64,000 nucleotides of DNA from Streptomyces sp. AM 4-1-1 (GTDB lineage: Bacteria; Actinomycetota; Actinomycetes; Streptomycetales; Streptomycetaceae), in contig NZ_CP119145.1 of the NCBI RefSeq assembly GCF_029167625.1, positions 3,720,001 to 3,784,000 of the forward strand, written 5' to 3'. The translations under genes were made by a program, and so were the position numbers. The first letter of the stretch is position 1; every line of letters begins with the position of its first letter. This document shows, piece after piece, positions 34,001 through 57,424 of the stretch. Below the pieces are notes generated by a model. That model saw nothing but the letters and a program-made list of their open reading frames with translations, was not told where the DNA came from and ran no database searches.

Positions 34001-36099
34001 GGGACCACCCCCGCAGACGCGGGGACCACTGGCGTACATGGAGCCGGGCATCGGGACTTTCGGGACCACCCCCGCACGCGCGGGGACCACCAGCTCCTCG
34101 ACAACGACGACATCTGGCGCAAGGGACCACTCCCGCACGCGCGGGGACCACCACGAGACCCGCCGCCACGGCCCGGCCGGCCCGGGACCACCCCCGCACG
34201 CGGGGACCACAGGCAGTACAGGACTCGCGCCCGGCGGCCGAGGGGACCACCCCCGCACGCGCGGGGACCACTCCAGGATGTTCCGCCCGGACAAGCCGAC
34301 CCCAGGACCAGCCCCGCACGCGCGGGGACCACATCCACTGCCGGAGCAGCAACCGCCGTGTCGAGGGACCACCCCCGCACGCGCGGGGACCACCAGCTCC
34401 TCGACAACGACGACATCTGGCGCAAGGGACCACTCCCGCACGCGCGGGGACCACCACGAGACCCGCCGCCACGGCCCGGCCGGCCCGGGACCACCCCCGC
34501 ACGCGGGGACCACAGGCAGTACAGGACTCGCGCCCGGCGGCCGAGGGGACCACCCCCGCACGCGCGGGGACCACTCCAGGATGTTCCGCCCGGACAAGCC
34601 GACCCCAGGACCAGCCCCGCACGCGCGGGGACCACATCCACTGCCGGAGCAGCAACCGCCGTGTCGAGGGACCACCCCCGCACGCGCGGGGACCACGCCG
34701 TCCGGCCAGGGTCTCGGAAATGCGACGGAGGACCGCCCCCGCACGCGCGGGGACCACGGCGGGTTCTCCGGTGATGACGCGGAGGCCGGGGGACCACCCC
34801 CGCACGCGCGGGGACCACCATGTCCGCGACGGTCCGGTCGTGGTCGGCCTGGGACCACCCCCGCACGCGCGGGGACCACCCGCCCGCGCACCTGTACTCG
34901 GACGAGCCGCCGGGACCACCCCCGCACGCGCGGGGACCACCCAGTCCCTCAACTCCCCCACGGACCACAAAAGGGACCACCCCCGCACGCGCGGGGACCA
35001 CCTCCACGTTCAAGTACGTGGAGGACTGCGCGAGGGACCACCCCCGCACGCGCGGGGACCACCGCGCCGCCCAGCTCGGCGACAAGGACGCGGCGGGACC
35101 ACCCCCGCACGCGCGGGGACCACGTGAAGACCAGGGCGGCGCCGCGGAGGTAGAGGGGACCACCCCCGCACGCGCGGGGACCACCGGGTGGGGAGTTCTG
35201 CGGGGGTGGACCTGTTGGGACCACCCCCGCACGCGCGGGGACCACCATGTCCGCGACGGTCCGGTCGTGGTCGGCCTGGGACCACCCCCGCACGCGCGGG
35301 GACCACCCGCCCGCGCACCTGTACTCGGACGAGCCGCCGGGACCACCCCCGCACGCGCGGGGACCACTCCTGGCGCGGACGGCCGAGGGGACGGCTGTTG
35401 GGACCACCCCCGCACGCGCGGGGACCACGAGGGCACCGAGCCGGAACGGCTGGAAACACTGGGACCACCCCCGCACGCGCGGGGACCACCACTCCCGCGA
35501 GTACTCGGCCCGTGACGGCGGGGGACCACCCCCGCACGCGCGGGGACCACGCCTCCACCCGCTCGTTCAACTACGCCTACCAGGGACCACCCCCGCACGC
35601 GCGGGGACCACGACAGCGGGCCGTTGAAGGGTCGAGTGCAGTCGGGACCACCCCCGCACGCGCGGGGACCACCGGGCCGAGACAGCTCACGCCCTCGTCG
35701 TGCGGGGACCACCCCCGCACGCGCGGGGACCACCCGTCCCCGCCCCTCGATTCGACGTTGACGCCGGGACCACCCCCGCACGCGCGGGGACCACGCTGCA
35801 AGACCTACACCGGGTGACAACCCCGAGGGACCACCCCCGCACGCGCGGGGACCACCCGTATCGAGAATTCGGCGCCGTACACACCGAAGGACCACCCCCG
35901 CACGCGCGGGGACCACTTGAGGGTGCGGAGGCTGGGGTTGGTGGTGGGGGGACCACCCCCGCACGCGCGGGGACCACAGTCGAACACGTCGCTGTCTGTG
36001 CGGGTCGCGGGGACCACCCCCGCACGCGCGGGGACCACACGAGGACGAACGGGTTGAGGGCCATCACTCCGGGACCACCCCCGCACGCGCGGGGACCAC
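34001..36099 (-). CRISPR. CRISPR array 1, type I-E, 35 repeats and 34 spacers
   Basis: Repeats of 29 nt, on the minus strand GTGGTCCCCGCGCGTGC followed by GGGGGTGGTCCC, separated by 32-nt spacers (61-nt period). Transcription is leftwards: the most degenerate repeat is at the left (34001-34029, with CAGACG instead of CACGCG), and the leader end should be at 36099. There, instead of a leader, the array abuts the cas1 fragment. All repeats carry the ACCC form of the handle. Two repeats are 27 nt (34184-34210 and 34487-34513), from copying of one variant. Only 27 spacers are different; seven are copies. A handful of repeats have single substitutions (for example 34304, 34729, 35888). Confidence 0.97.
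34091..34696 (-). repeat. Perfect 303-bp tandem duplication within array 1
   Basis: The block 34091-34393 (five spacers with their five repeats) is repeated exactly in 34394-34696. The copy includes a CTCCC repeat variant, a 27-nt short repeat and an AGGACCAGCC variant, which rules out independent acquisition. A second, shorter copy involves 34819-34940 and 35246-35367 (two spacers with two repeats), separated by five other units. Confidence 0.97.
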
Positions 36100-36100
36100 T

Positions 36101-36247
36101 GTGGGTCACCCCGTCGGTGTCCGTCGCGGTGATCGCGTTGTCGTCCCGGTGGACCACGCACCGTTCCAGGTAGATGAACGAGAGCCGGTCACCGACCCGG
36201 GTGAGTTCGCGGGGTGAGGACGCGCCCCGGCGGCCGACCGTGCTCAT
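36101..36247 (-). pseudogene. cas1: cas1 truncated after codon 49, continuing into CRISPR array 1
   Basis: Starting at ATG 36247, the frame reads the conserved Cas1e N-terminus: STVGRRGASSPRELTRVGDR, then LSFIYLERCVVHRDDNAI and TATDTDGVTH. In complete Cas1e proteins this is followed by roughly 250 more residues with the catalytic Glu, His and Asp. Here codon 49 is followed at once by a perfect CRISPR repeat (36099 downwards), so the frame only continues as nonsense through repeats and spacers to a stop at 35687. The ATG overlaps the cas6 stop (ATGA), as expected for the native operon. No cas2 is present. A deletion has joined cas1 to the array. Confidence 0.9.
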
Positions 36248-36972
36248 CCGTCCGCCCGGGTCAGCGGGGCGAGGGTCATCAGACCGCAGCCGTACGCCTT
36301 GGCCTTGCCCAGGCCGTGGGTCAGGGTGCGTCGGAGGACGTCCGGGTCCGTGACCCGCAGCCGGCCGTCGTACGTGACCCGGGTGAAGCGCACGTCCTGG
36401 CGGCGGTCCTTCGCGGGGGGTCTGTTGAACTGGAGGGGGCGTTGGTCGCGCACGACCAGCTCGTGTTCGTCACCGTGGTCCAGAAGCCGTCGCTCCGGGG
36501 GCTTCGCGACGATCTCGAATCCGGACTTCTCCTGTCGGTCCAGCAGCCAACGCAGTTGGTGGTACGGGGTTTTATGGGCCACGCGCTGGGTGCGTTCGCC
36601 CTCCTTGTGGTCCTCGTGACGGATGTTGTGAACCGGGTTCGCGGTGAGCCGGAAGGCCCATGTGCTGCCTTCAGCGAGGCCGGTGAGGAATCCGTCGTAG
36701 TCGAAGGTGGTCCAGCCGAGGCCGTCCGCCGCGGGCCAGCCCGCCTGCTCGACCAGGTGGGTCAGGTCCGGGCGGTTCGGGCTGACCACGTACAGCAGGG
36801 TCTCCGCCGTCGAGTTGCGGTCGACGCGCCACAGCACCCTGGGCCCCGACCCGTCCCTGGACGGTAGGTCGGGAAAGGACATGTTCACCGCCCCGTGCAG
36901 GCGGTGCGGTGCTTCGAGGAGGCGCCGGGCGTCCGTACGACCGGTGTTGACACGGAAGCGGGTCAGGTACAT
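36244..36972 (-). CDS. cas6e: Cas6e (CasE/Cse3) CRISPR RNA endoribonuclease
   Basis: A 242-residue protein of the Cas6e family. It starts YLTRFRVNTGRTDARRLL, followed by RLHGAVNMSFP with the histidine that is the general acid of E. coli Cas6e. The C-terminus carries the glycine-rich loop HGLGKAKAYGCGLMTLAPL typical of the family. Cas6e cuts the pre-crRNA at each repeat hairpin and stays bound to the 3' end in Cascade. The start overlaps the cas5e stop by one base (TGATG), so it is coupled within the operon. All expected features are intact, so array transcripts can probably be processed. Confidence 0.95.
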   Translation of the reverse strand: MYLTRFRVNTGRTDARRLLEAPHRLHGAVNMSFPDLPSRDGSGPRVLWRVDRNSTAETLLYVVSPNRPDLTHLVEQAGWPAADGLGWTTFDYDGFLTGLAEGSTWAFRLTANPVHNIRHEDHKEGERTQRVAHKTPYHQLRWLLDRQEKSGFEIVAKPPERRLLDHGDEHELVVRDQRPLQFNRPPAKDRRQDVRFTRVTYDGRLRVTDPDVLRRTLTHGLGKAKAYGCGLMTLAPLTRADG

Positions 36973-37808
36973 CAGGTGTTCCTCGGTGGTACGGAGATCG
37001 GGAGCCCGGCGACCGGATCGTGGGACGGGACGGGTGCGGAGACGGCAGGCGTGCGGGCGGGCGACGGACCGACGGGTGACGGACCCCCGGTCGTCCGTCC
37101 GGCGGGCGTCGAGCCGTCGGCCGGTCCCGTCCGCCCGGTGCGGATGCCACGGAGTCCGTACCGTCGGTGGCTCGGGTCGAAGCTCAACGGCAGATCGCGC
37201 AGGGTCACGTCCGGCAGCTCACCGGCCGGGCAGTCGAGCAGCAGATCCAGATCTTCCGGGGCGGGTACCGGGTCGACGTCGGAGGACGCCGCCGACGACC
37301 CCTGGAAGTGAGCCAGTTCGCGCCGGTACCACGCGGACGCCTGCCACGGTGCCTCCCGCAGCGCCTCTTCAAGGCCGATGTCCCGGGGTTCGCCCATCGT
37401 GACGGGCAGGGAGGGCGGGCAGGAGCGCCGGCCGAGGTACGGCAGGAACACCGGTTCCAGCAGTGCCTCGTACAGCGCGTCGATCAGCCGGCCCTCGCCC
37501 CGCACGCCCGCCACGAACACCGCGTCCGTGAGGTAGAAGCGCTCCGACAGCGGCATGGCCTTCTGCGTGTCCGCGTGGTGCGCGGTCTGGAAGTCCCGCA
37601 GCCGCGCGCCCGGTTGATCGACGCGCACCCCGAACTCCAGTGCCGCGAGGTCCGAGAGGTCCGCACTCCGGGTGCGCCCCTGCGCGGCGGCGAGGAGCCC
37701 CAGGACGCCGCTCTTCGTCGGCGCGTTCTCCGTGGTGCGGCGCGTGAAGCGGGCCGCCGACCCCCACGCCTGGAGAGGTCCCGCGAGCCGCAGCAGCAGC
37801 ACGCTCAT
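36972..37808 (-). CDS. cas5e: Cas5e (CasD)
   Basis: A 278-residue protein. The N-terminus is the family signature SVLLLRLAGPLQAWG with RRTTENAPTKSGVLGLLAAA. The central part has FLPYLGRRSCPPSLPV, also typical. The protein holds the 5' handle of the crRNA in Cascade. A C-terminal Pro/Gly/Ser/Arg-rich extension of about 55 residues follows the folded domain and makes it longer than the roughly 225-residue E. coli protein. The ATG at 37808 overlaps the cas7e stop (ATGA). Confidence 0.95.
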   Translation of the reverse strand: MSVLLLRLAGPLQAWGSAARFTRRTTENAPTKSGVLGLLAAAQGRTRSADLSDLAALEFGVRVDQPGARLRDFQTAHHADTQKAMPLSERFYLTDAVFVAGVRGEGRLIDALYEALLEPVFLPYLGRRSCPPSLPVTMGEPRDIGLEEALREAPWQASAWYRRELAHFQGSSAASSDVDPVPAPEDLDLLLDCPAGELPDVTLRDLPLSFDPSHRRYGLRGIRTGRTGPADGSTPAGRTTGGPSPVGPSPARTPAVSAPVPSHDPVAGLPISVPPRNT

Positions 37809-39034
37809 GCCTGCGGCTCCGACGCCTTGGCCGTCGCCGCCGTCTTGGCCGTCGGCAGCCGGTCGGCGACCGCGTCCCCGACGGCCGTCACCAGCTCGGA
37901 GAGCGCCACCTCGGTGCCGAGACCGGCAAGGGCGGCGGTGTCGTGGCCCACCCGCAGGACCCAGCTCGGTTCGTCGGCGGGCACACCGTACGCCTTTTCC
38001 AAGCCGGCGATGTGGGCGGCCAGTTGTTCGCAACTCTGTCGCAGGTAGCCGCCGCCTGGACCCTGCTCCACCGGCTTCTCGAACGCCCCGACGAAGCTGA
38101 TCGGGCGCCGGGAGCGGATCTTCACGATCACCGCGGCGGGCAGGGTGTGGTTGCCGAAGGTGTTGATCTTCCCGGTGGGCAGGGAGGAGATGAATCCCTC
38201 CAGGAAGGCGGCCACGGCACGACGGGTGGGCTCGGCGGGGGACGCGGACGTACCGGGGCCCAGGTTCTCGTACAGCCGGTCGATGTCCACGGCGGCGTAG
38301 CGGTACAGCGTCGCCGAGTTGAAGTCGACCGTGCCGATCATTCCGGCACCCGCCTCGGCGTCCGTGTTCCGGTCGTCGACGGCGGTGAAGTAGTCCGACT
38401 CGACATCGACGGGGTGCACGCTCAGGGCGTGCGCCACCTGCGTCGCCGCGTCGACGTTGAGGTCGGTCGAGTCCGCGACCATACGCCCGAACAGCGCGAT
38501 GTCCACCGAGTGTTCGGTACTCACCAGCTGCTTGGCGCGCGCCTTGTTCTCCTTGACCTTCAGGAAGTCCTTCAGTGCCTTGAGCCCGCCGTCCTGGCCG
38601 CCCTCGACGGCGAGTGCGGCCAGCGCGTCCAACTGGCGGCTGCTGAGGAACATCAGGTACGAGGACTCCGGCGCCCGTGCGCCCTCGTCACCGTCCTTGC
38701 TCTTGCGCTTGGGTGCCTCGATCTTGGAGCCGGTGGCAGTCCCTACCGTCTCGGCGGCCAGTTCCAGGGCCACACCCTCGTCCATGGAGGGGGACAGTAC
38801 GGCGATCCGCTCGGCCAGCAGCACTGCCACCTTCTTCGTCCGCACCCCCAGCTCGGACTCGTCCAGCAGTTCGCGGAACGCCTTCCGGGTGGCCCGCTTC
38901 CACGCCTGGCTGGACACGCGCGCCCTGCGCACGCCGCCGTAGACGGCGGACTTCGGGGCCCCGGTGTCGTCCCTGTTGAGGTTGCTCGGCGGCACGGTCT
39001 GGAGGATGTGGATGTCGACGATGGTGCGGGTCAC
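37805..39034 (-). CDS. cas7e: Cas7e (CasC/Cse4)
   Basis: A 409-residue protein that begins with the strongly conserved TRTIVDIHILQTVPPSNLN, then DDTGAPKSAVYGGVRRARVS and SQAWKRATRK, which identify Cas7e at once. It forms the six-subunit backbone that covers the crRNA in Cascade. The GTG at 39034 is used, with AAGGA about 10 nt upstream; an open frame to 39145 has no conserved features. The insert KIEAPKRKSKDGDEGARAP is longer than in E. coli. The 91-bp gap to cse2 is the only real gap in the operon. Confidence 0.95.
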   Translation of the reverse strand: MTRTIVDIHILQTVPPSNLNRDDTGAPKSAVYGGVRRARVSSQAWKRATRKAFRELLDESELGVRTKKVAVLLAERIAVLSPSMDEGVALELAAETVGTATGSKIEAPKRKSKDGDEGARAPESSYLMFLSSRQLDALAALAVEGGQDGGLKALKDFLKVKENKARAKQLVSTEHSVDIALFGRMVADSTDLNVDAATQVAHALSVHPVDVESDYFTAVDDRNTDAEAGAGMIGTVDFNSATLYRYAAVDIDRLYENLGPGTSASPAEPTRRAVAAFLEGFISSLPTGKINTFGNHTLPAAVIVKIRSRRPISFVGAFEKPVEQGPGGGYLRQSCEQLAAHIAGLEKAYGVPADEPSWVLRVGHDTAALAGLGTEVALSELVTAVGDAVADRLPTAKTAATAKASEPQA

Positions 39035-39125
39035 GGCAGTTGGTTCCTTGTCGTGGTCAGTGAGTGAGTGAGTGGAGGGGCGAAGAACGGGGGAGAAGGG
39101 GACGGGGCCTACCGGGTGGGAGGGG

Positions 39126-39995
39126 TCATTCACCGGAACCGTCACCGCCGCGCTCGCTGCCGCCGTCGTTCCGCTCGTCCCCCTTCTTCACGACCCACGC
39201 GGCCAGATGGAATTCGCGGCCCCATTCGCGCCGCACGGAGGCGCGCCGGTCCGGGAACTGCCAGCGGTAGAGCTGGTCGGCGAGCCGTCCGTAGTCGAGC
39301 GGCACCCGCGCGGTGCGCAGCAGCGTGACGATCTCCCGGAGCCGTACGGCCACCGACTCGATCGAGTTCGCCGCCCCCACCCGTACGAACCGTTTGCGGA
39401 GCGGTTCGTTCACTTCGTCGTCGACCTTGAAGGGGCGTGTGGGGTCCGCGAACCACGGCCGTGTCCCGCCTTCGGCGCCCTGTGCGGGGGGCGAGTCCCC
39501 CGACTTCAGCTGCATCAGTACGCGGACGGCCCGGCCCAGGGTCGCGCCGGGGATGTGCATCTTCTCGTCGCGCCCCGACTGCTGGTGGAGTGACCAGAGC
39601 GTCACCGCGAGGTACACCGCCTCCTCCGCCCGTTCACGGTGTACGAACGGCTGGTCGTCCGCCCGCTCTTCCAGCGCCTCGGCCAGTTCGTCGAGGCCGC
39701 CGATGCCCCAGTGGTCCACCAGCGTGTGCACGGTGTGTCCGGCGCCACGCCGGAGCCTGGCGAGCGTCGCCACGGCGGCGGACTCGTCCCGGAGGTAACT
39801 GCCCTGGAGCTGGGAGATGTACCGGGAGGCGGCCTGTCCGGCCGGGCCCTGCTGGTGGCGGAGGGATGGGCCCCTGTCTGCGGACTCCTGCGGCCTGCCC
39901 TCCTGGAAGCCCGTCCCGGTCGTCTCCGACGCGTCCGACACGCCGTGGGCCGGGCGACCGGTGGCTCCGGTCGTGGGGGTCGGGGGTGTGGTCAT
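39126..39995 (-). CDS. cse2: Cse2/Cas11 (CasB) small subunit
   Basis: A 289-residue protein. The core (about 70-275) has the Cse2 pattern: RYISQLQGSYLRDESAAVATLARLRRG, the helices around AVYLAVTLWSLHQQ, and WQFPDRRASVRREWGREFHLA near the end. The first 65 residues are a Thr/Gly/Ser-rich extension absent from E. coli CasB (about 160 residues). Two copies bind along the target DNA in Cascade. The ATG at 39995 overlaps the stop of the cas3-cas8e fusion (ATGA). Confidence 0.9.
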   Translation of the reverse strand: MTTPPTPTTGATGRPAHGVSDASETTGTGFQEGRPQESADRGPSLRHQQGPAGQAASRYISQLQGSYLRDESAAVATLARLRRGAGHTVHTLVDHWGIGGLDELAEALEERADDQPFVHRERAEEAVYLAVTLWSLHQQSGRDEKMHIPGATLGRAVRVLMQLKSGDSPPAQGAEGGTRPWFADPTRPFKVDDEVNEPLRKRFVRVGAANSIESVAVRLREIVTLLRTARVPLDYGRLADQLYRWQFPDRRASVRREWGREFHLAAWVVKKGDERNDGGSERGGDGSGE

Positions 39996-42900
39996 GCGCT
40001 GGGCTCCGTCGTGTCGTCATCGGGAGAGTCGGGTGAGTGGGGAGAGCCGGGTGAGTCGGGAGAGTCGGGTGAGTGGGGAGAGCCGTGAATGTCGGTGGGA
40101 TCGGTCGGGCCGGGGAAGTCGGCGCGGTCGGTGGGCTCACCGGGGCGGGCCGGGGAGAAGCCGGGGGACGTGCCCGACGAGTCACCGGACACGTCGCGGT
40201 TCCCGTCCCCGTTCCGGTCCCCGTCCCCGCCGTCGTCCCCGTCCGAGGCGTCGGCCCCCTCCGAGGCGTCGGCCCCCTCCGCCTCGTCGCCCCGGCCGTT
40301 CCTCCGGTCCGCACCCGGCAGGATCTTGTTGAGCCGGGTCCGGAACCACAGGTCCGCCCGGGAGTCGTCGATCCAGCGCGTGCCCACGCCGGGGATCTCG
40401 GTGATCCGCCCCTCCCACGCCGACGGCCCCGCCGTGTCGAGAAGCCGCTCACCGAGCCGACGCACGATCCGGCTCACCGTGGTCTGCCACTCGGCGCGGG
40501 CCGCCTCGGGGTCGTCGTACTCGCCCAGTCCCACCAGCCACTGCCGGTACGGGCCGTCCAGCGCTCCGAACCCCAGGTCACGCGCGGCACTCGTGCCCGA
40601 CGCCGGGTCCGAACCGGCCGCGCGTGCGAGGTTCCCGGCGAGCTGCCCCAGCGCGGTGACCGCCGCCTCGGCGTCCGCTACCGCGTTGACCGCTGCCGCC
40701 GCGTACAACGGCCGTTCCTCGTCGAGCAGTACGACGGGCAGCGTGACCGAGTCCTCGACCACCTCGTCCACCACCGACTGCTGGGTCCCGTACACCGCCC
40801 CGACCAGCCGGGTACGGATCAGCTTCCGGTCCTGGAGTGGCCCTTCCCAGGGCAGCATGGTGAGCCACCGCACCACCCCGGACGGCAGCAGGCTCGGCGC
40901 CTCACCGCGCCCGGAGTCCTCCCCCGCCGCACGCCGCGCGGGCAGCAGACTCGCCATACCGCGCCACGCGGCCCGGCTCGCGTCGTGCTGCCGGGGCAGA
41001 TAGACGAGCCCCCGGCCCTGCTTCTTCTCCTGTGCCGGACTGCGCCGCCAGGCCGTCATGGGTTCGGACTTCCAGCGGTCGTACGGGGTGAGCGGGTCCC
41101 CGTACCCGAGGACGACCCCCGTGGCGGTGTCCCCCTCCGAGTGCAGCAGCACCCGGCGGGACTGCCAGGTGTAGAGGTCGCGGGGGCCGGAAGGCCGCCG
41201 GCCCGACTCGCTCTCCTCGACCACGCCGGGGCCGGTCGGCGGGCGGCGCCATACCGGCAGGTCCCGCTTCCCGTCCGTGGTGAGGATGCCCTCGTCCGTC
41301 GGGATCAGGTTCAGCAGCAGCGTCTCGCGCAGGTTGTGCCCCTCCGCATGGATTCCGCCGAGGTTGCCCGCCCAGCCCGTGCCCTGGGGGTAGACCTTGC
41401 CGCCCTTGACCCGGTCGTCGCCCACCATGCCGGACTTGATCCCGGACGGGTCGAAGGCGTGTGCGTGCACCAGCCAACGGGCGGCCTCGGCGAGACTCAG
41501 CCGCTCGACGCCGGGGCGGCGCATCGCGAAGAACGGCTCGCCGTTCGGCACGTCCGCGACGATGCGGTTCAGCGAGGCCACTTCCTCCTTCGCGGTGTGG
41601 AGGCCCGCGACCTGGAAGAACGGGTGCTCGGGGTGGAGCAGGTCGAAGCGGTCACGGTGCCGGTCGAGGTAGTCCGCGACGGCCGCGAACGACTCGGGGT
41701 CCTCCCACAGCTCCTCCCAGTCCTCCCGCTCCGCCGGCCCCTCCAGCGCGTCGTAGAGGATCGCCAGCAGCAGCCGCAGCAGCGCGAACTCCTGGGTGGG
41801 GAGATCACCCACCAGCCGCCGCAGTCCGTGCGCCTGGGCGAAGACCTCGCGGAGCGACAGCTCGACGGTCGTGCCGTCGTCTCGCTGGACGGGCAGCCAC
41901 GGCCGCGCGACCAGGTCGAAGGTGGCCCGCGCGGGTGCCACCGGGCCCTTCGGCAGCGCCGCCTCCGTGCTGTGTGTGCTCGCTGCTGCGGTCATGTCGG
42001 CCGTTCCGTTCGTACCGGCGGCCCCGGCCGCCTCCCGCGCGTCGGACGTGTCGCGCGCATCGGTCGGGCGGTGCCCCTGAGTCGTGTCGGTCGTGTCGGT
42101 CGTGTGAGTCGTGTGAGTCGTGTTGGACGTACTGGTGGTGCTGGTCGTGCCAGGCGCGTCCACGGCGGTGACCCGCAGGCCGTCGGCGTAGCTGTAGCGC
42201 AGCTCGAATCCTGCCAGCCGGGTCTGACAATCCCCGTCGAGGACGAGCAGCAACTCCCCTGCCAGCCACGGGCATTCCTTCACCTGCCAGCCGGGTACGA
42301 GAAAACGTTCCAGCTCGGCGATGGTCCTCCGGGTCGCCCGCGTCCTGGAGAACTGCCAGGGCAGCGTGAGCGCGCTCGCCGCGACGGCCTCGGCGGCCCG
42401 CCTGGTCGGCGGGCAGTGCTCGGGCAGATACAGACCGCCCCGCCCGCCGTCCAGCCATTCGACGGTGGTCAGCCGGCCGTCCGGCTGCCGCTGGACGACC
42501 AGCACCTCCAGGCTCTCCTCGCTGTCCCGCACCTGGGCGCGGCCCGCGCGGCTGTCGTCGACGTCCCCGGCGTTCGCCTCCAGCCAGCCGACCACCGCGC
42601 GCCCGGCCCGGCGCACCGGCCCGAGCCGGAAGTATTCGGCGCGTTGCTGCTTGTCCGTGAGCTTCTTCTCGTACGCCCGGCGGCTCTCGTCCATGGCGTC
42701 GGCCCAGTGCGCGGGCCCGATCGCCGCGTTCCCGTACGCCGTCTGCACCAGCGGGCTGATGTGGTCGGGCAGGACCAGCGGCTCGCCGTCCAGATGGGGG
42801 CGCAGGACGGCCAGCGTGCGCAACAGGGTGTGTGGCCCCTGATAGACGCTGATCGTCCCCCGTACCGGCTCGGGCGGATCGGACCGCCAGTCGGCACCGG

Positions 42901-45187
42901 TCACCAGGCAGCGGGCGCGCGTCAGGCGCGCGGGACGGGTACGGGGATGGCGGTGCAGCCGCCCCATGCGCTGGAGCATGAGGTCGACCGGCGCGAGGTC
43001 CGTGACGAGCAGATCGAAATCGATGTCGAGCGACTGTTCCACGACCTGGCTGGCGACGACGATGTGCGGCCCCGCGGGACGGTCGCCGTCGCGGCCGAAC
43101 CGGGTCCGCAGCTCGGTGTCCTTACGGGCGCGGTCGGCGGCCAGGAACCGGGAGTGCGCCACGGTCACCGCGTCCGCCCCGAAGTGCGCGCGCAGCGCCT
43201 CGGCGGCGTCGAGCACCCGGTCGACCGTGTTGCGCACGACCAACGCGCAGCCGCCGTCGGCCAGTTCGGCATCCAGCCGATGTACCAGTTCGGTGAGGTC
43301 GTCGTCGAGCGCTTCGAGCGCGATCTCCGTACGACGTCCGGAAGCGGCGGCGGGACGGGAATACCGTACGGGCGCGTCCGGCGCCACGGCGGTGAGCAGC
43401 GGATAGGCGTCGCCGGTCGGGGCGGATGCGGCGCGCGCTCCACCGCCGCGGCTGCCGTCGTCGGCCGCCGGAGCACCGCCACCGCCACTGTCGTCGACCG
43501 CCGGGGCGCCGACCTCCACGGCCTTCTCGAACTCCCCGTACGCGTCCTCGATGCTCCACCCGGCGTACGCGGCGGCGAGCGCCCGCCGCCGGCCGGCGGG
43601 AAGCGTCGCGGACAGCAGCACCACGGGCACGCGGTAGGCGGCCAGCCACTCCAGTACGCGTTCGAGGTACGCGTTCATGTAGGCGTCGTACGCGTGGACT
43701 TCGTCGATGACGACGACCTTGCCCGCGACGGCGAGGTGCCGCAGCGCCAGGTGCCTGCTCTTGAGCCCGGCGAACAGCACCTGGTCGATGGTGCCGACCG
43801 CGAAGGAGGCGAGCAACGCCTTCTTCCGCCCCCGCAGCCACTGGTGGGCATGGAGCCCGGCCGGACTGGTGCGCCGCTCGTCGGCCGCCCCCGCCACCCG
43901 CTCCGAACCGTCCGTCTCCACGGCGGCGATCGTGCGGTTGCCGGTCTCCAGGAGCCCCGACCATCGGTCGTTGAGCGCGGCCTTGGCATGGGCGAGGACG
44001 ACGGACCGGGGCCCGTCGGAGGGCAGCCGGTCCAGCCAGTCGAGCAGTCGGGGGAACATGGCGTCCCCGGTCGCCCGGGTCGGCAGCGCCACGAGGCAGC
44101 CCCCGGCCCCGGACCGCGCGGCCAGGATCTCGACCGCCGCGAAGGCCGCCTCCGTCTTTCCCTCCCCCATCGGCGCCTCGATGATCAGCAGCCCGGCGGC
44201 GGGCATCTGCCGCGCCAGCCGTACGGCCGCCTCCTGTACGGGCCTGATCTCCGCGCCCTCCGGCAGCTCGAACCGCTCGGCGAACAACTCGGCGGCCGTG
44301 CCCTGCGGTTCTGCGGCGGACCACGGGCCCGGAAGATCCAGTCCCCGCCAGGCGGCCTCCAACCGACGCGCCTCACCGGAGCCGCCCACTCCGGCAGACC
44401 CTTCTGAAGGCGCCCACGAAACCGGGTCGTAGGGGAACAGCTCGGACGAGCTGGCGATCCAGTCGGAGAGGATGACCACGGCTGTGAGGACGACCTGCAC
44501 GGTCTGCGGCAGGCGTACGGACGCCCAGTCCGCCAACCGCCCCTCGACCCCGGCGACGGACGCGCAGGCGTCCATCAACTCCCGTTGCACACCACGCCAG
44601 TTGCTCTCCGACGCCCCCGACGTGCGCAACAACCGGGGATTGAGCCGGAGATCATGGATCTGCTGGTGCTCAGGAGGCGTCCCGTGATGCCCACCGGCGA
44701 CCACGGCGAACTGCCCGGAGGCACGTTCGGTCCAGCCGAACCGCTCGGAAAGCCACTCCTGGAGCAGCAGTTGCCCGGCCAGCCCGTGCGGTGCCATGCG
44801 CCGATCGGTGCCGAACTGCTTCTGGTACGGCATGTCGAGCCCGGCGTCACGCATCCGCTGGGCGAGCCCGTCGACCTGGCAGGAGAAGGCGGGCGTGGCC
44901 TTCCCGATGTCATGAACGGCCGCGAGGAACACCGCCAGCCGCCGGGCGTCGGCCGCCCCTTCCGGAAGGGGTTCGGCGACGAGGGCCTTGACGTTCTGCG
45001 GCACCCACTCGTCCCACAACCGACCCGCTACGGCCGCGCTGTCGGCCATGTGACGCCACAGGGGAAGCCAGTCCTCGGTCTTACGGTCGTGCTTGCCCCA
45101 GGCCCGCCGCGCCCGATCGGACAGCCGATCGAAGGGTGTCGCGGTGACGGACGAGTGTCGTGCTGAACTCATGGGCGTATTGGACAT
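39992..45187 (-). CDS. Cas3-Cas8e (Cse1/CasA) fusion protein
   Basis: A 1731-residue fusion. Residues about 1-240 are the HD nuclease (HDIGKATPAF near 92; GGHHGTPPEH near 164). Next comes an SF2 helicase: Walker A APMGEGKTEAAF near 340, DEVHAYD near 497, LLSATLP near 530, SQVVEQSLD and QRMGRLHRH near 740. After a Thr/Ser/His/Asp-rich linker (about 1010-1080) the Cse1 large subunit begins (about 1085, TFDLVARPWLPV) and continues with GWAGNLGGIHAEGHNL and other family segments to about 1640, followed by an Asp/Gly/Ser-rich tail. Fusion links target recognition to degradation. Such Cas3-Cse1 fusions are known from S. griseus and others. ATG 45187 has AAGGG 7 nt upstream. Confidence 0.95.
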   Translation of the reverse strand: MSNTPMSSARHSSVTATPFDRLSDRARRAWGKHDRKTEDWLPLWRHMADSAAVAGRLWDEWVPQNVKALVAEPLPEGAADARRLAVFLAAVHDIGKATPAFSCQVDGLAQRMRDAGLDMPYQKQFGTDRRMAPHGLAGQLLLQEWLSERFGWTERASGQFAVVAGGHHGTPPEHQQIHDLRLNPRLLRTSGASESNWRGVQRELMDACASVAGVEGRLADWASVRLPQTVQVVLTAVVILSDWIASSSELFPYDPVSWAPSEGSAGVGGSGEARRLEAAWRGLDLPGPWSAAEPQGTAAELFAERFELPEGAEIRPVQEAAVRLARQMPAAGLLIIEAPMGEGKTEAAFAAVEILAARSGAGGCLVALPTRATGDAMFPRLLDWLDRLPSDGPRSVVLAHAKAALNDRWSGLLETGNRTIAAVETDGSERVAGAADERRTSPAGLHAHQWLRGRKKALLASFAVGTIDQVLFAGLKSRHLALRHLAVAGKVVVIDEVHAYDAYMNAYLERVLEWLAAYRVPVVLLSATLPAGRRRALAAAYAGWSIEDAYGEFEKAVEVGAPAVDDSGGGGAPAADDGSRGGGARAASAPTGDAYPLLTAVAPDAPVRYSRPAAASGRRTEIALEALDDDLTELVHRLDAELADGGCALVVRNTVDRVLDAAEALRAHFGADAVTVAHSRFLAADRARKDTELRTRFGRDGDRPAGPHIVVASQVVEQSLDIDFDLLVTDLAPVDLMLQRMGRLHRHPRTRPARLTRARCLVTGADWRSDPPEPVRGTISVYQGPHTLLRTLAVLRPHLDGEPLVLPDHISPLVQTAYGNAAIGPAHWADAMDESRRAYEKKLTDKQQRAEYFRLGPVRRAGRAVVGWLEANAGDVDDSRAGRAQVRDSEESLEVLVVQRQPDGRLTTVEWLDGGRGGLYLPEHCPPTRRAAEAVAASALTLPWQFSRTRATRRTIAELERFLVPGWQVKECPWLAGELLLVLDGDCQTRLAGFELRYSYADGLRVTAVDAPGTTSTTSTSNTTHTTHTTDTTDTTQGHRPTDARDTSDAREAAGAAGTNGTADMTAAASTHSTEAALPKGPVAPARATFDLVARPWLPVQRDDGTTVELSLREVFAQAHGLRRLVGDLPTQEFALLRLLLAILYDALEGPAEREDWEELWEDPESFAAVADYLDRHRDRFDLLHPEHPFFQVAGLHTAKEEVASLNRIVADVPNGEPFFAMRRPGVERLSLAEAARWLVHAHAFDPSGIKSGMVGDDRVKGGKVYPQGTGWAGNLGGIHAEGHNLRETLLLNLIPTDEGILTTDGKRDLPVWRRPPTGPGVVEESESGRRPSGPRDLYTWQSRRVLLHSEGDTATGVVLGYGDPLTPYDRWKSEPMTAWRRSPAQEKKQGRGLVYLPRQHDASRAAWRGMASLLPARRAAGEDSGRGEAPSLLPSGVVRWLTMLPWEGPLQDRKLIRTRLVGAVYGTQQSVVDEVVEDSVTLPVVLLDEERPLYAAAAVNAVADAEAAVTALGQLAGNLARAAGSDPASGTSAARDLGFGALDGPYRQWLVGLGEYDDPEAARAEWQTTVSRIVRRLGERLLDTAGPSAWEGRITEIPGVGTRWIDDSRADLWFRTRLNKILPGADRRNGRGDEAEGADASEGADASDGDDGGDGDRNGDGNRDVSGDSSGTSPGFSPARPGEPTDRADFPGPTDPTDIHGSPHSPDSPDSPGSPHSPDSPDDDTTEPSA

Positions 45188-45385
45188 GGCTGTGCCCTTG
45201 CGAGGAGTGATGTTGCGAAAGAGGGGACGCGGTGGTGAAGGGGTGCGGTATAGGGGTGGCGCGGCGGGCGTGGGGCGCAACGCGGGGCCGGAGGCGCGGG
45301 GATGGCGCGGTTGACGTTGCCCCTCCGCGGGCCGGAAGCCGATGAGTCGGCTGCCGTCTCGGGGAAGGGCTTCGCGCCCGAAGTG

Positions 45386-49809: not shown

Positions 49810-50813
49810 GCCACCCTCCCCGCACGTGCGGGGAGCAGGGAGCCAGCTTCGCCGAGCGTCTGAATTACCTGGGGTCACCCCGCACGCGTGGGGACCACTC
49901 GCGGTGCGCCGGCGACCACAGTGCGGGCAGGGGACCATCCCCGCACGCGCGGGGACCACCGGACCCTGCCCGGCATGACAACGAACGTGGAGGGACCATC
50001 CCCGCACTCGCGGGGACCACAAGGTGGTAGCGCGCGGGAAAGTCCGCTACCGGGGACCATCCCCGCACGCGCGGGGATCACGCCTCACCGACCACGATGA
50101 ACGGGTAGGCGGCCGGACCATCCCCGCACGCGCGGGGACCACTCGGTGTAGGTGTACGGGCCGCGGCCGCCGTAGGGACCATCCCCGCACGCGCGGGGAC
50201 CACACGGCGTCGCCCGCCGCATGCCCGAGGCCATCGGGACCATCCCCGCACGCGCGGGGACCACGTGTGCTCGTTGAGTGGCATGGTCAGCCCCGGGGGA
50301 CCATCCCCGCACACGCGGGGACCACCAGTTCCTCCGCGACACCAGCGGCGCCGGGGCGGGACCATCCCCGCACGCGCGGGGACCACGCGGTGTGGGGCGG
50401 CACGATCAACCGCGAGGTGGGACCATCCCCGCACGCGCGGGGACCACAGCTTCACCGCACTGGAAGACAACGACACGACCGGACCATCCCCGCACGCGCG
50501 GGGACCACATCACAGACTCCGACGTCGCCGGGGCGCCCCGGGGACCATCCCCGCACGCGCGGGGACCACACGCGGCGCGGCCCACCATCGTCTTGACCGG
50601 GGGGACCATCCCCGCACGCGCGGGGACCACTCGGTGCGCCAGAGACCCCGGTTCTTCGCGGCGGGACCATCCCCGCACGCGCGGGGACCACGCGGCGGTC
50701 AGCGTGTCGACGAGTGGTCGGCAGGGACCATCCCCGCACGCGCGGGGACCACTGGCACTCCGCTATTGACGAGGGACGCACGTGGGGACCATCCCCGCAC
50801 GCGCGAGGACCAC
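49810..50813 (-). CRISPR. CRISPR array 2, type I-E, 17 repeats and 16 spacers
   Basis: Same 29-nt repeat as array 1 but with the ATCC handle form in the regular repeats (minus strand GGGGATGGTCCC end). Spacers are 32 nt. The two left-most repeats are degenerate (49810-49838, and a 28-nt copy at 49871-49898), marking the leader-distal end; transcription is leftwards from the leader at 50814. The leader-proximal repeat (50785-50813) carries a unique change in its stem that no other repeat shares. No spacer is duplicated. All other repeats are intact or have single changes. Confidence 0.96.
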
Positions 50814-51465
<652 letters not shown>

Positions 51466-55416: not shown

Positions 55417-56543
55417 GGGACCATCCCCGCATGCGCGGGGACCACCGCTCATACAACTACGGATCAGAAGGTTGCAGGGGACCATCCCCGCGTGCGCGGG
55501 GACCACGCCGCCCTGGCCGCGCGTGGTGACGAAGCGGCGGGACCATCCCCGCATGCGCGGGGACCACGTCGGCATGGTCGAGCCGGAGAAGGCCCCCGAG
55601 GGACCATCCCCGCACGCGCGGGGACCACGGGTTGGACGCGTCCTGCATGTCCCACATCAAGGGACCATCCCCGCACGCGCGGGGACCACAAGTCGTATTT
55701 CGCGGGGTCTACCACGAAGTGGGGACCATCCCCGCACGCGCGGGGACCACACGAGCCGGTTGACCGTGGTGGTCTCCGTGATGGGACCATCCCCGCACGC
55801 GCGGGGACCACGGAGTACGTGCAGGAGACCATCTTCCAGGCCGGGGACCATCCCCGCACGCGCGGGGACCACCCGATCGTCAGTGTGTCGGCGTCGGCCA
55901 GGTGGGGACCATCCCCGCACGCGCGGGGACCACCCCACGATGGCGGAGACGGAGCCCTATGAGATGGGACCATCCCCGCACGCGCGGGGACCACCCCACG
56001 ATGGCGGAGACGGAGCCCTATGAGATGGGACCATCCCCGCACGCGCGGGGACCACGCCTTGAGGACCCACTGCCCCCATGGCCACGAGGGACCACCCCCG
56101 CACGCGCGGGGACCACTGCCGCCCGATCGCGGGCATGAAGCGCGGGTGGGGACCACCCCCGCACGCGCGGGGACCACACCCACCCCGAAGGCCCGGAGGA
56201 CGACTACAAGGGACCACCCCCGCACGCGCGGGGACCACCGGCACGGCGGGCGGTGCGCCTGGCCCCTTTCGGGACCACCCCCGCACGCGCGGGGACCACC
56301 TGGACACCACCACAGCCAACGGACAGAAACTGGGACCACCCCCGCACGCGCGGGGACCACTGCTCGGTGGTGGACTGGTTGCGCTGCTGCTCGGGACCAC
56401 CCCCGCACGCGCGGGGACCACTGCCATAGACAAATTATGGGAGGGGTGCCATAGGGACCACCCCCGCACGCGCGGGGACCACACGGCGAAGGGCACGTCT
56501 GGATCGACCAGGACGGGACCACCCCCGCACGCGCGGGGACCAC
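55417..56543 (-). CRISPR. CRISPR array 3, type I-E, 19 repeats and 18 spacers
   Basis: 29-nt repeats and 32-nt spacers as in the other arrays, read leftwards from the leader at 56544. The eleven leader-distal repeats (55417-56055) have the ATCC form; the eight leader-proximal ones (from 56088) have the ACCC form. Older repeats vary in the stem (CATGCG, CGTGCG). One spacer is present twice in adjacent units (55934-55965 and 55995-56026). One spacer (56422-56453) is unusually AT-rich for this genome and likely comes from a lower-GC invader. Confidence 0.97.

Positions 56544-57424
<881 letters not shown>

Follow-up and report, generated by a model that had tools for sequence, protein, structure and literature searches.

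A Streptomyces type I-E CRISPR-Cas locus with a truncated cas1 joined directly to a CRISPR repeat

Streptomyces sp. AM 4-1-1 is a soil bacterium with a genome of 7.47 Mb in two contigs. The window analyzed here, a stretch of 64,000 nucleotides, covers 3.72–3.78 Mb of the 7.17 Mb contig. Searches with Pfam and NCBIfam profiles revealed a canonical type I-E effector operon on its minus strand (Table 1). The gene set of this subtype (Cse1, Cse2, Cas7e, Cas5e, and Cas6e) was found above the Pfam and NCBIfam cut-offs, and Cas3 was called by its Pfam domains and by the NCBIfam profile cas3_core, also above cut-off. An earlier note on this DNA had considered the interference genes intact, and indeed all frames were open, the profiles matched, and the Cas3 motifs were present. 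As every effector gene is open and the motifs of Cas3 are retained, interference has likely been kept. The effector genes overlap one another, which suggests that they form one operon. Since the profile match of cas5e begins so late in its longest ORF (Table 1), its true start is probably near 37800. The fusion of Cas3 and Cse1 was discarded as a novelty: among 100 relatives examined, 89 had both genes matched, and in 41 of these the two lie in a single open frame.

Table 1. Features of the type I-E locus and its arrays in the window (positions in the window; all on the minus strand).
Feature	Position	Strand	Remarks
CRISPR array 1, 35 repeat units	34001..36099	(-)	33 units with up to 3 mismatches; leaderless
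186-aa open frame	35687..36247	(-)	predicted frame of 49 cas1 codons + 137 array codons
First repeat of array 1	36071..36099	(-)	perfect 29-nt copy
Junction	36099..36100	(-)	36100 is the last base agreeing with cas1 of relatives; 36099 is repeat base 1
cas1e remnant, codons 1–49	36101..36247	(-)	ATG overlapping the cas6e stop
cas6e (cse3)	36244..36972	(-)	Pfam PF08798, NCBIfam TIGR01907 above cut-off
cas5e	36972..38033	(-)	profile match from residue 78 of the longest ORF
cas7e (cse4)	37805..39145	(-)	Pfam/NCBIfam profiles
cse2 (casB)	39126..39995	(-)	Pfam/NCBIfam profiles
Fused cas3-cse1	39992..45280	(-)	1762 aa as the longest ORF; Pfam/NCBIfam profiles, Cas3 motifs
CRISPR array 2, 17 units	49810..50813	(-)	last two units degenerate
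Array-2 leader, conserved block	50814..50913	(-)	motif 50848-50865
CRISPR array 3, 19 units	55417..56543	(-)	
Array-3 leader, conserved block	56544..56643	(-)	motif 56578-56595

Downstream of cas6e, the minus strand reads 49 Cas1e codons and then continues with base 1 of a perfect CRISPR repeat, without a leader between them. That cas1 is cut after codon 49 and joined directly to a repeat, as had been noted before, was confirmed by the translation, which passes from 49 Cas1-like codons into translated repeats. The match of base 36100 to the cas1 of relatives is perhaps due to chance. The 49-aa fragment was identified as Cas1e by NCBIfam TIGR03638 (E = 6.7e-6, residues 13–46), its score falling far under the cut-off for the whole protein, as a fragment would be expected to do. 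In the alignment that had been proposed as a check, it matched the start of cas1 in all 20 relatives examined, with 63–88% identity. The remnant carries no frameshift, and the fragment had no second match anywhere in the genome. The rest of cas1, cas2e, and the leader of array 1 are absent at the locus. The predicted RNA fold at the joint was no more stable than that of shuffled sequences (z = 0.19).

The arrays have the unit of type I-E, a 29-nt repeat and a 32-nt spacer adding up to 61 nt, with a 30-nt spacer in two units of array 1. Within the window, 67 repeat copies with up to 3 mismatches were counted, compared to 0.01 expected in shuffled sequences. Three further I-E arrays lie elsewhere in the genome (two in L011 and one in L012), and the leader block is kept by five I-E arrays, namely arrays 2 and 3 and the three outside the window. 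Within the window, matches to the leader motif GGAAGTAAGTAAAAACAG with up to 3 mismatches are confined to arrays 2 and 3, in agreement with the earlier view that array 1 has lost its leader. Array 1 contains exact internal duplications of 300 nt (34062–34361 and 34365–34664) and 151 nt (34790–34940 and 35217–35367), which may be read as a sign of recombination between repeats and not of spacer gain.

Spacer 1 of array 1 (36039–36070) matches the tape-measure region of phages SF1, AbbeyMikolon, and Nesbitt (E 0.05–0.2), and a spacer of array 3 (near 55782) matches phage ToastyFinz (E 1e-7). An AAC stands upstream of the protospacers in SF1 (E 0.05), Nesbitt (E 0.2), and ToastyFinz, which suggests AAC as the PAM here; the C ending most repeats may for this reason be PAM-derived. 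In Streptomyces phage Piccadilly (OL455886, record positions 34599–34895; L187:1503–1800), six hairpins resembling the I-E repeat were observed 49–61 nt apart between phage genes 53 and 54. The 3.2 kb stretch around them gave seven motif hits versus 0.6 in mononucleotide shuffles, and the related phages Ignacio, Vondra, Cumberbatch, Eastland, and HFrancette have matches at a similar place. These hairpins may represent a small array carried by the phage or a decoy RNA with anti-CRISPR function.

A search of the whole genome narrowed the claim that adaptation had been lost. The part that concerns type I-E stood, as the Cas1e family had no match in the genome at E up to 1e-6 and no Cas2e was found above cut-off (best 14.9 bits). 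By the note's own test, under which a complete cas1-cas2 elsewhere in the genome would remove the claim, half of it was refuted: the sole Cas1 found with Pfam PF01867 (E up to 1), at C1:7037937–7038752, is a complete Cas1b (NCBIfam, 306.8 bits versus a cut-off of 304.1). This gene at 7.04 Mb is preceded by Cas3 and by a Cas4 below its whole-protein cut-off, and the ORF after it was read as Cas2 by eye. The I-B arrays beside it have a 30-nt repeat unlike the I-E repeat. One of them (L010:40–2290, near 7.03 Mb of the main contig) is interrupted by a 364-aa ORF, judged by eye to resemble a transposase, and the spacers on its two sides start identically. Because this separate type I-B Cas1 exists, the loss of adaptation holds for I-E only. 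The genome retains an adaptation module of type I-B, while the I-E system has none, its cas1e being cut and Cas2e above cut-off being absent, and is unable to add spacers with its own enzymes. With effector genes and array present and cas1-cas2 absent, the locus is of the interference-only kind, in a genome whose Cas1b belongs to another system.

The relatives show what the locus is missing. In all 20 genus loci examined, cas1 is open for 314–347 codons (the match in L054 being a second, nearby cas1 copy). A Cas2-type ORF stands next to it in 17 of the 20 according to a script, which picked the wrong frame in L045 and L052 and found none in L059. A repeat on the same strand follows downstream in 18, usually behind a leader tail resembling GCAGGTCA. 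Within the analyst's coverage limits, both cas1 and cas2 are present in 72 of 80 named loci; the other eight are L069, L081, L104 (at a contig end), L114, L123, L134, L141, and L142. According to the earlier note, a deletion running from within cas1 to a repeat would have removed cas1, cas2, and the leader, and a comparison with intact strains was suggested. In support of this deletion, the relatives retain the undeleted order cas1-cas2-leader-array, with a full Cas1e in the nearest of them. The closest Cas6e (P0122) is identical at 239 of 242 residues (3 differ), and an intact 316-aa Cas1e (P0054, Streptomyces sp. DT171) shares 47 of the 49 residues of the fragment; both proteins are probably from Streptomyces sp. 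DT171. Since the nearest relative keeps a full Cas1e and the remnant is free of frameshifts, the deletion, judged from these sequences, is recent.

Other loci of the genus have also lost cas1 while keeping the effector. Cas6e was above cut-off in 96 of 295 genus genomes (116 loci) and Cas1e in 70 of the 295. No Cas1e match lay within 12 kb in 36 of the 116 Cas6e loci, and 24 of the 96 genomes, the present one included, had no Cas1e match at all. Counting all 36 loci as losses was rejected, as many are only partial profile matches; judged by eye, many look like a divergent I-E-like group. Seven further loci (L145, L149, L154, L155, L159, L160, and L163) have a nearly full canonical effector set and no cas1, the genome of L160 carrying Cas1e elsewhere. 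Another two (L164 and L181) combine a broken cas1 with a nearly full effector set. Separately, two genomes carry divergent I-E-like operons without a Cas1e match close to each end of the main contig (L165 and L166 in G068; L173 and L174 in G091). These terminal operons recall the I-E5 variant, which the accessible text of PMC12669027 places on telomeric transposons.

A search with the Cas1e N-terminus in 392 genus genomes gave short matches in the present genome (1–50), G069 (3–64), G204 (10–85), and G150 (5–82), and matches split over two frames in G051 and G200. The match in G069 continues in a neighboring match, and among the N-terminal matches, the present genome has the only one observed to break off at an array like this. 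When the class was searched with the Cas1e family (394 genomes), G424, G455, G372, and G486 gave partial matches. With the 186-aa chimera as query, no Cas1e start joined to a repeat translation was seen among the 120 listed of 439 matches; P0095 and P0119 are short Cas1e pieces, neither ending in a repeat. In the comparison with Escherichia coli, 1215 of 5426 genomes matched, 1172 of them over at least 80% of the query. Among the 60 E. coli matches listed, which leave out most of the 43 genomes under 80% coverage, 57 cover at least 97% and the other three have no cas1 cut into an array. On plasmids, 56 records match at 60–80% identity, and cas1e is annotated in all 20 among the matches listed.

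Joints between cas1 and an array were also found at other loci. At L181 (G167), a frameshifted cas1, matching the intact relatives L190 and L191 at 88–89%, runs to GGCGTCAG, the last G of which is base 1 of the first repeat; the leader is absent, and no cas2 was found in the stretch examined. At L159 (G221), cas6e is followed by probably six cas1 codons, and the repeat is entered about 6 bases in. L142 (Nonomuraea harbinensis) has about 78 cas1 codons, about 14 bases resembling a leader tail, and three repeats, and L114 (Nocardiopsis ansamitocini) has about 27–30 codons, about 11 such bases, and one repeat. At L141 (Thermobifida fusca NBRC 14071), about 61 decayed cas1 codons and about 40 unassigned bases precede a long array. 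L081 has lost cas1-cas2 and kept leader and array, and in L069 cas1 is joined to the end of cas2. Two of the five resolved joints, those of the window and L181, are flush with repeat base 1 (p = 0.003–0.022 for even breaks in a 61-nt unit with a tolerance of 1 to 3 bases, the pattern being post hoc and the five joints chosen by the analyst).

We consider it very probable that this I-E locus recently lost adaptation by deletion while its effector was kept, and that it is now most likely interference-only with fixed spacers. The deletion would have removed everything in cas1 after codon 49, the whole of cas2, the leader, and perhaps spacers at the leader end, so that cas1 now meets base 1 of a repeat. 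A deletion explains the joint most simply, and we infer that it took a single step; the leader of array 1 and the cas genes could also have been lost in more than one. Expression and continued interference are likewise deduced: with its retained effector genes, the locus would most likely still make Cascade-Cas3 with a fixed spacer set, supplied with crRNAs by the five leadered I-E arrays and probably by array 1 through read-through from the cas operon.

As to its cause, the deletion was probably an illegitimate one, made by general repair on the basis of little or no homology, with its flush position due to chance. The joints of the window and L181 share an overlap of 0–1 bases, and deletion ends vary elsewhere, including the cas1-to-cas2 joint of L069 and the spared leader and array of L081; that two of five resolved joints are flush nevertheless speaks against chance. 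A narrower version of the deletion, which we regard as unlikely, is that the system's own integrase made it by using a chromosomal 3' end in cas1 as a prespacer. At the leader-repeat junction, Cas1-Cas2e would have linked this 3' end to the top strand, after which the remaining cas1, cas2, and the leader would have been discarded during repair. Two unrelated flush joints, improbable under even breaks, would fit this course, as would the breaks of L142 and L114 at most about 16 bases before the repeat. According to the accessible text of PMC8390005, the 3' end attacks one strand at the leader-repeat junction in leader-side integration; since the joined strand is the one attacked, an integrase-made joint would also fit in polarity. 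However, the sample is small and the pattern post hoc, L159 breaks inside the repeat, L142 and L114 are not flush, and the joint of L141 is outside the resolved set. Whether the joined repeat was the leader-end one cannot be told in the window or in L181, and the L181 genome is rated 6% contaminated and lies in 120 contigs, with cas1 also frameshifted. It is similarly doubtful that I-E adaptation modules can extinguish themselves and that the two flush Streptomyces joints are the scars.

The remaining alternatives are far less credible. Recombination between cas1 and a former array spacer copied from it, with removal of the intervening DNA, would also be expected to leave a flush spacer-repeat joint; this was rejected as very improbable, because the triplet ahead of the 32 nt that adjoin the joint is GAT in the window and CAT in L181, neither AAC nor AAG. 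It is just as hard to believe that the I-B Cas1-Cas2 acts in trans, so that the I-E arrays still gain spacers. Cas1b, Cas4, and the Cas2-like ORF are present in the genome, and the accessible text of PMC8092290 describes Cas1 shared in trans within a II-C/VI-B pair, but the I-B repeat differs from that of I-E in length and sequence. Least credible of all is an assembly artefact at the array: repeats are hard to assemble, but the joint lies inside a 7.17 Mb contig and the Cas2e family is missing genome-wide, beyond the joint.

Loss of adaptation by deletion does not imply a new promoter for array 1. In the earlier note, it was the deletion that brought the array under the cas promoter. This need not be so: in intact relatives the array already follows the cas genes, downstream and in their orientation, and read-through into array 1 may therefore be old. 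New at the locus are the absence of the leader and the reduced distance from cas genes to array. Transcription of array 1 may start at the cas promoter, and the overlapping genes point to a possible polycistronic mRNA of effector genes and pre-crRNA. Because relatives share the array position and five leadered I-E arrays can supply crRNAs, this arrangement is a by-product and not a needed design, and crRNA supply need not depend on it.

Among described systems, the type I-E system of S. avermitilis, as given in the accessible text of PMC4762764, shares subtype, genus, effector genes, and leadered arrays with the present one, and interference activity is reported for it. It differs in having all eight cas genes, including cas1-cas2, and in gaining spacers, where the adaptation genes are lost here; its PAM is AAG, whereas AAC is suggested here. 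In the M. tuberculosis complex, for example in RD207 of the Beijing family, adaptation genes adjoining the array are deleted as here, although that system is of type III-A. In strains with the deleted DR locus the array is lost too and IS6110 is retained, while here the array is kept, and the accessible text on these losses describes no flush cas1-repeat joint like the present one (PMC5310062). Types VII, III-G, and III-H likewise have effector genes without cas1-cas2; in the accessible text of PMC12669027 they are stable derived subtypes, unlike this canonical I-E locus with its fresh cas1 remnant. On these partial sources, both the loss of cas1-cas2 beside an array and subtypes without adaptation are already known (PMC5310062, PMC12669027). 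In the titles and abstract openings searched, a scope outside which most subscription papers fall, we found no report of a flush cas1-repeat joint.

Overall, adaptation was lost here in an ordinary way, and it is the junction that is unusual. The locus presents a fresh case of adaptive immunity turned fixed, with a near-identical relative that keeps cas1. Such pairs bear on how often CRISPR memory freezes, on the fate of interference after the loss, and on a possible part of the integrase in causing it. Flush joints, were they indeed integrase scars, would provide a readable genomic record of a cost of spacer acquisition.
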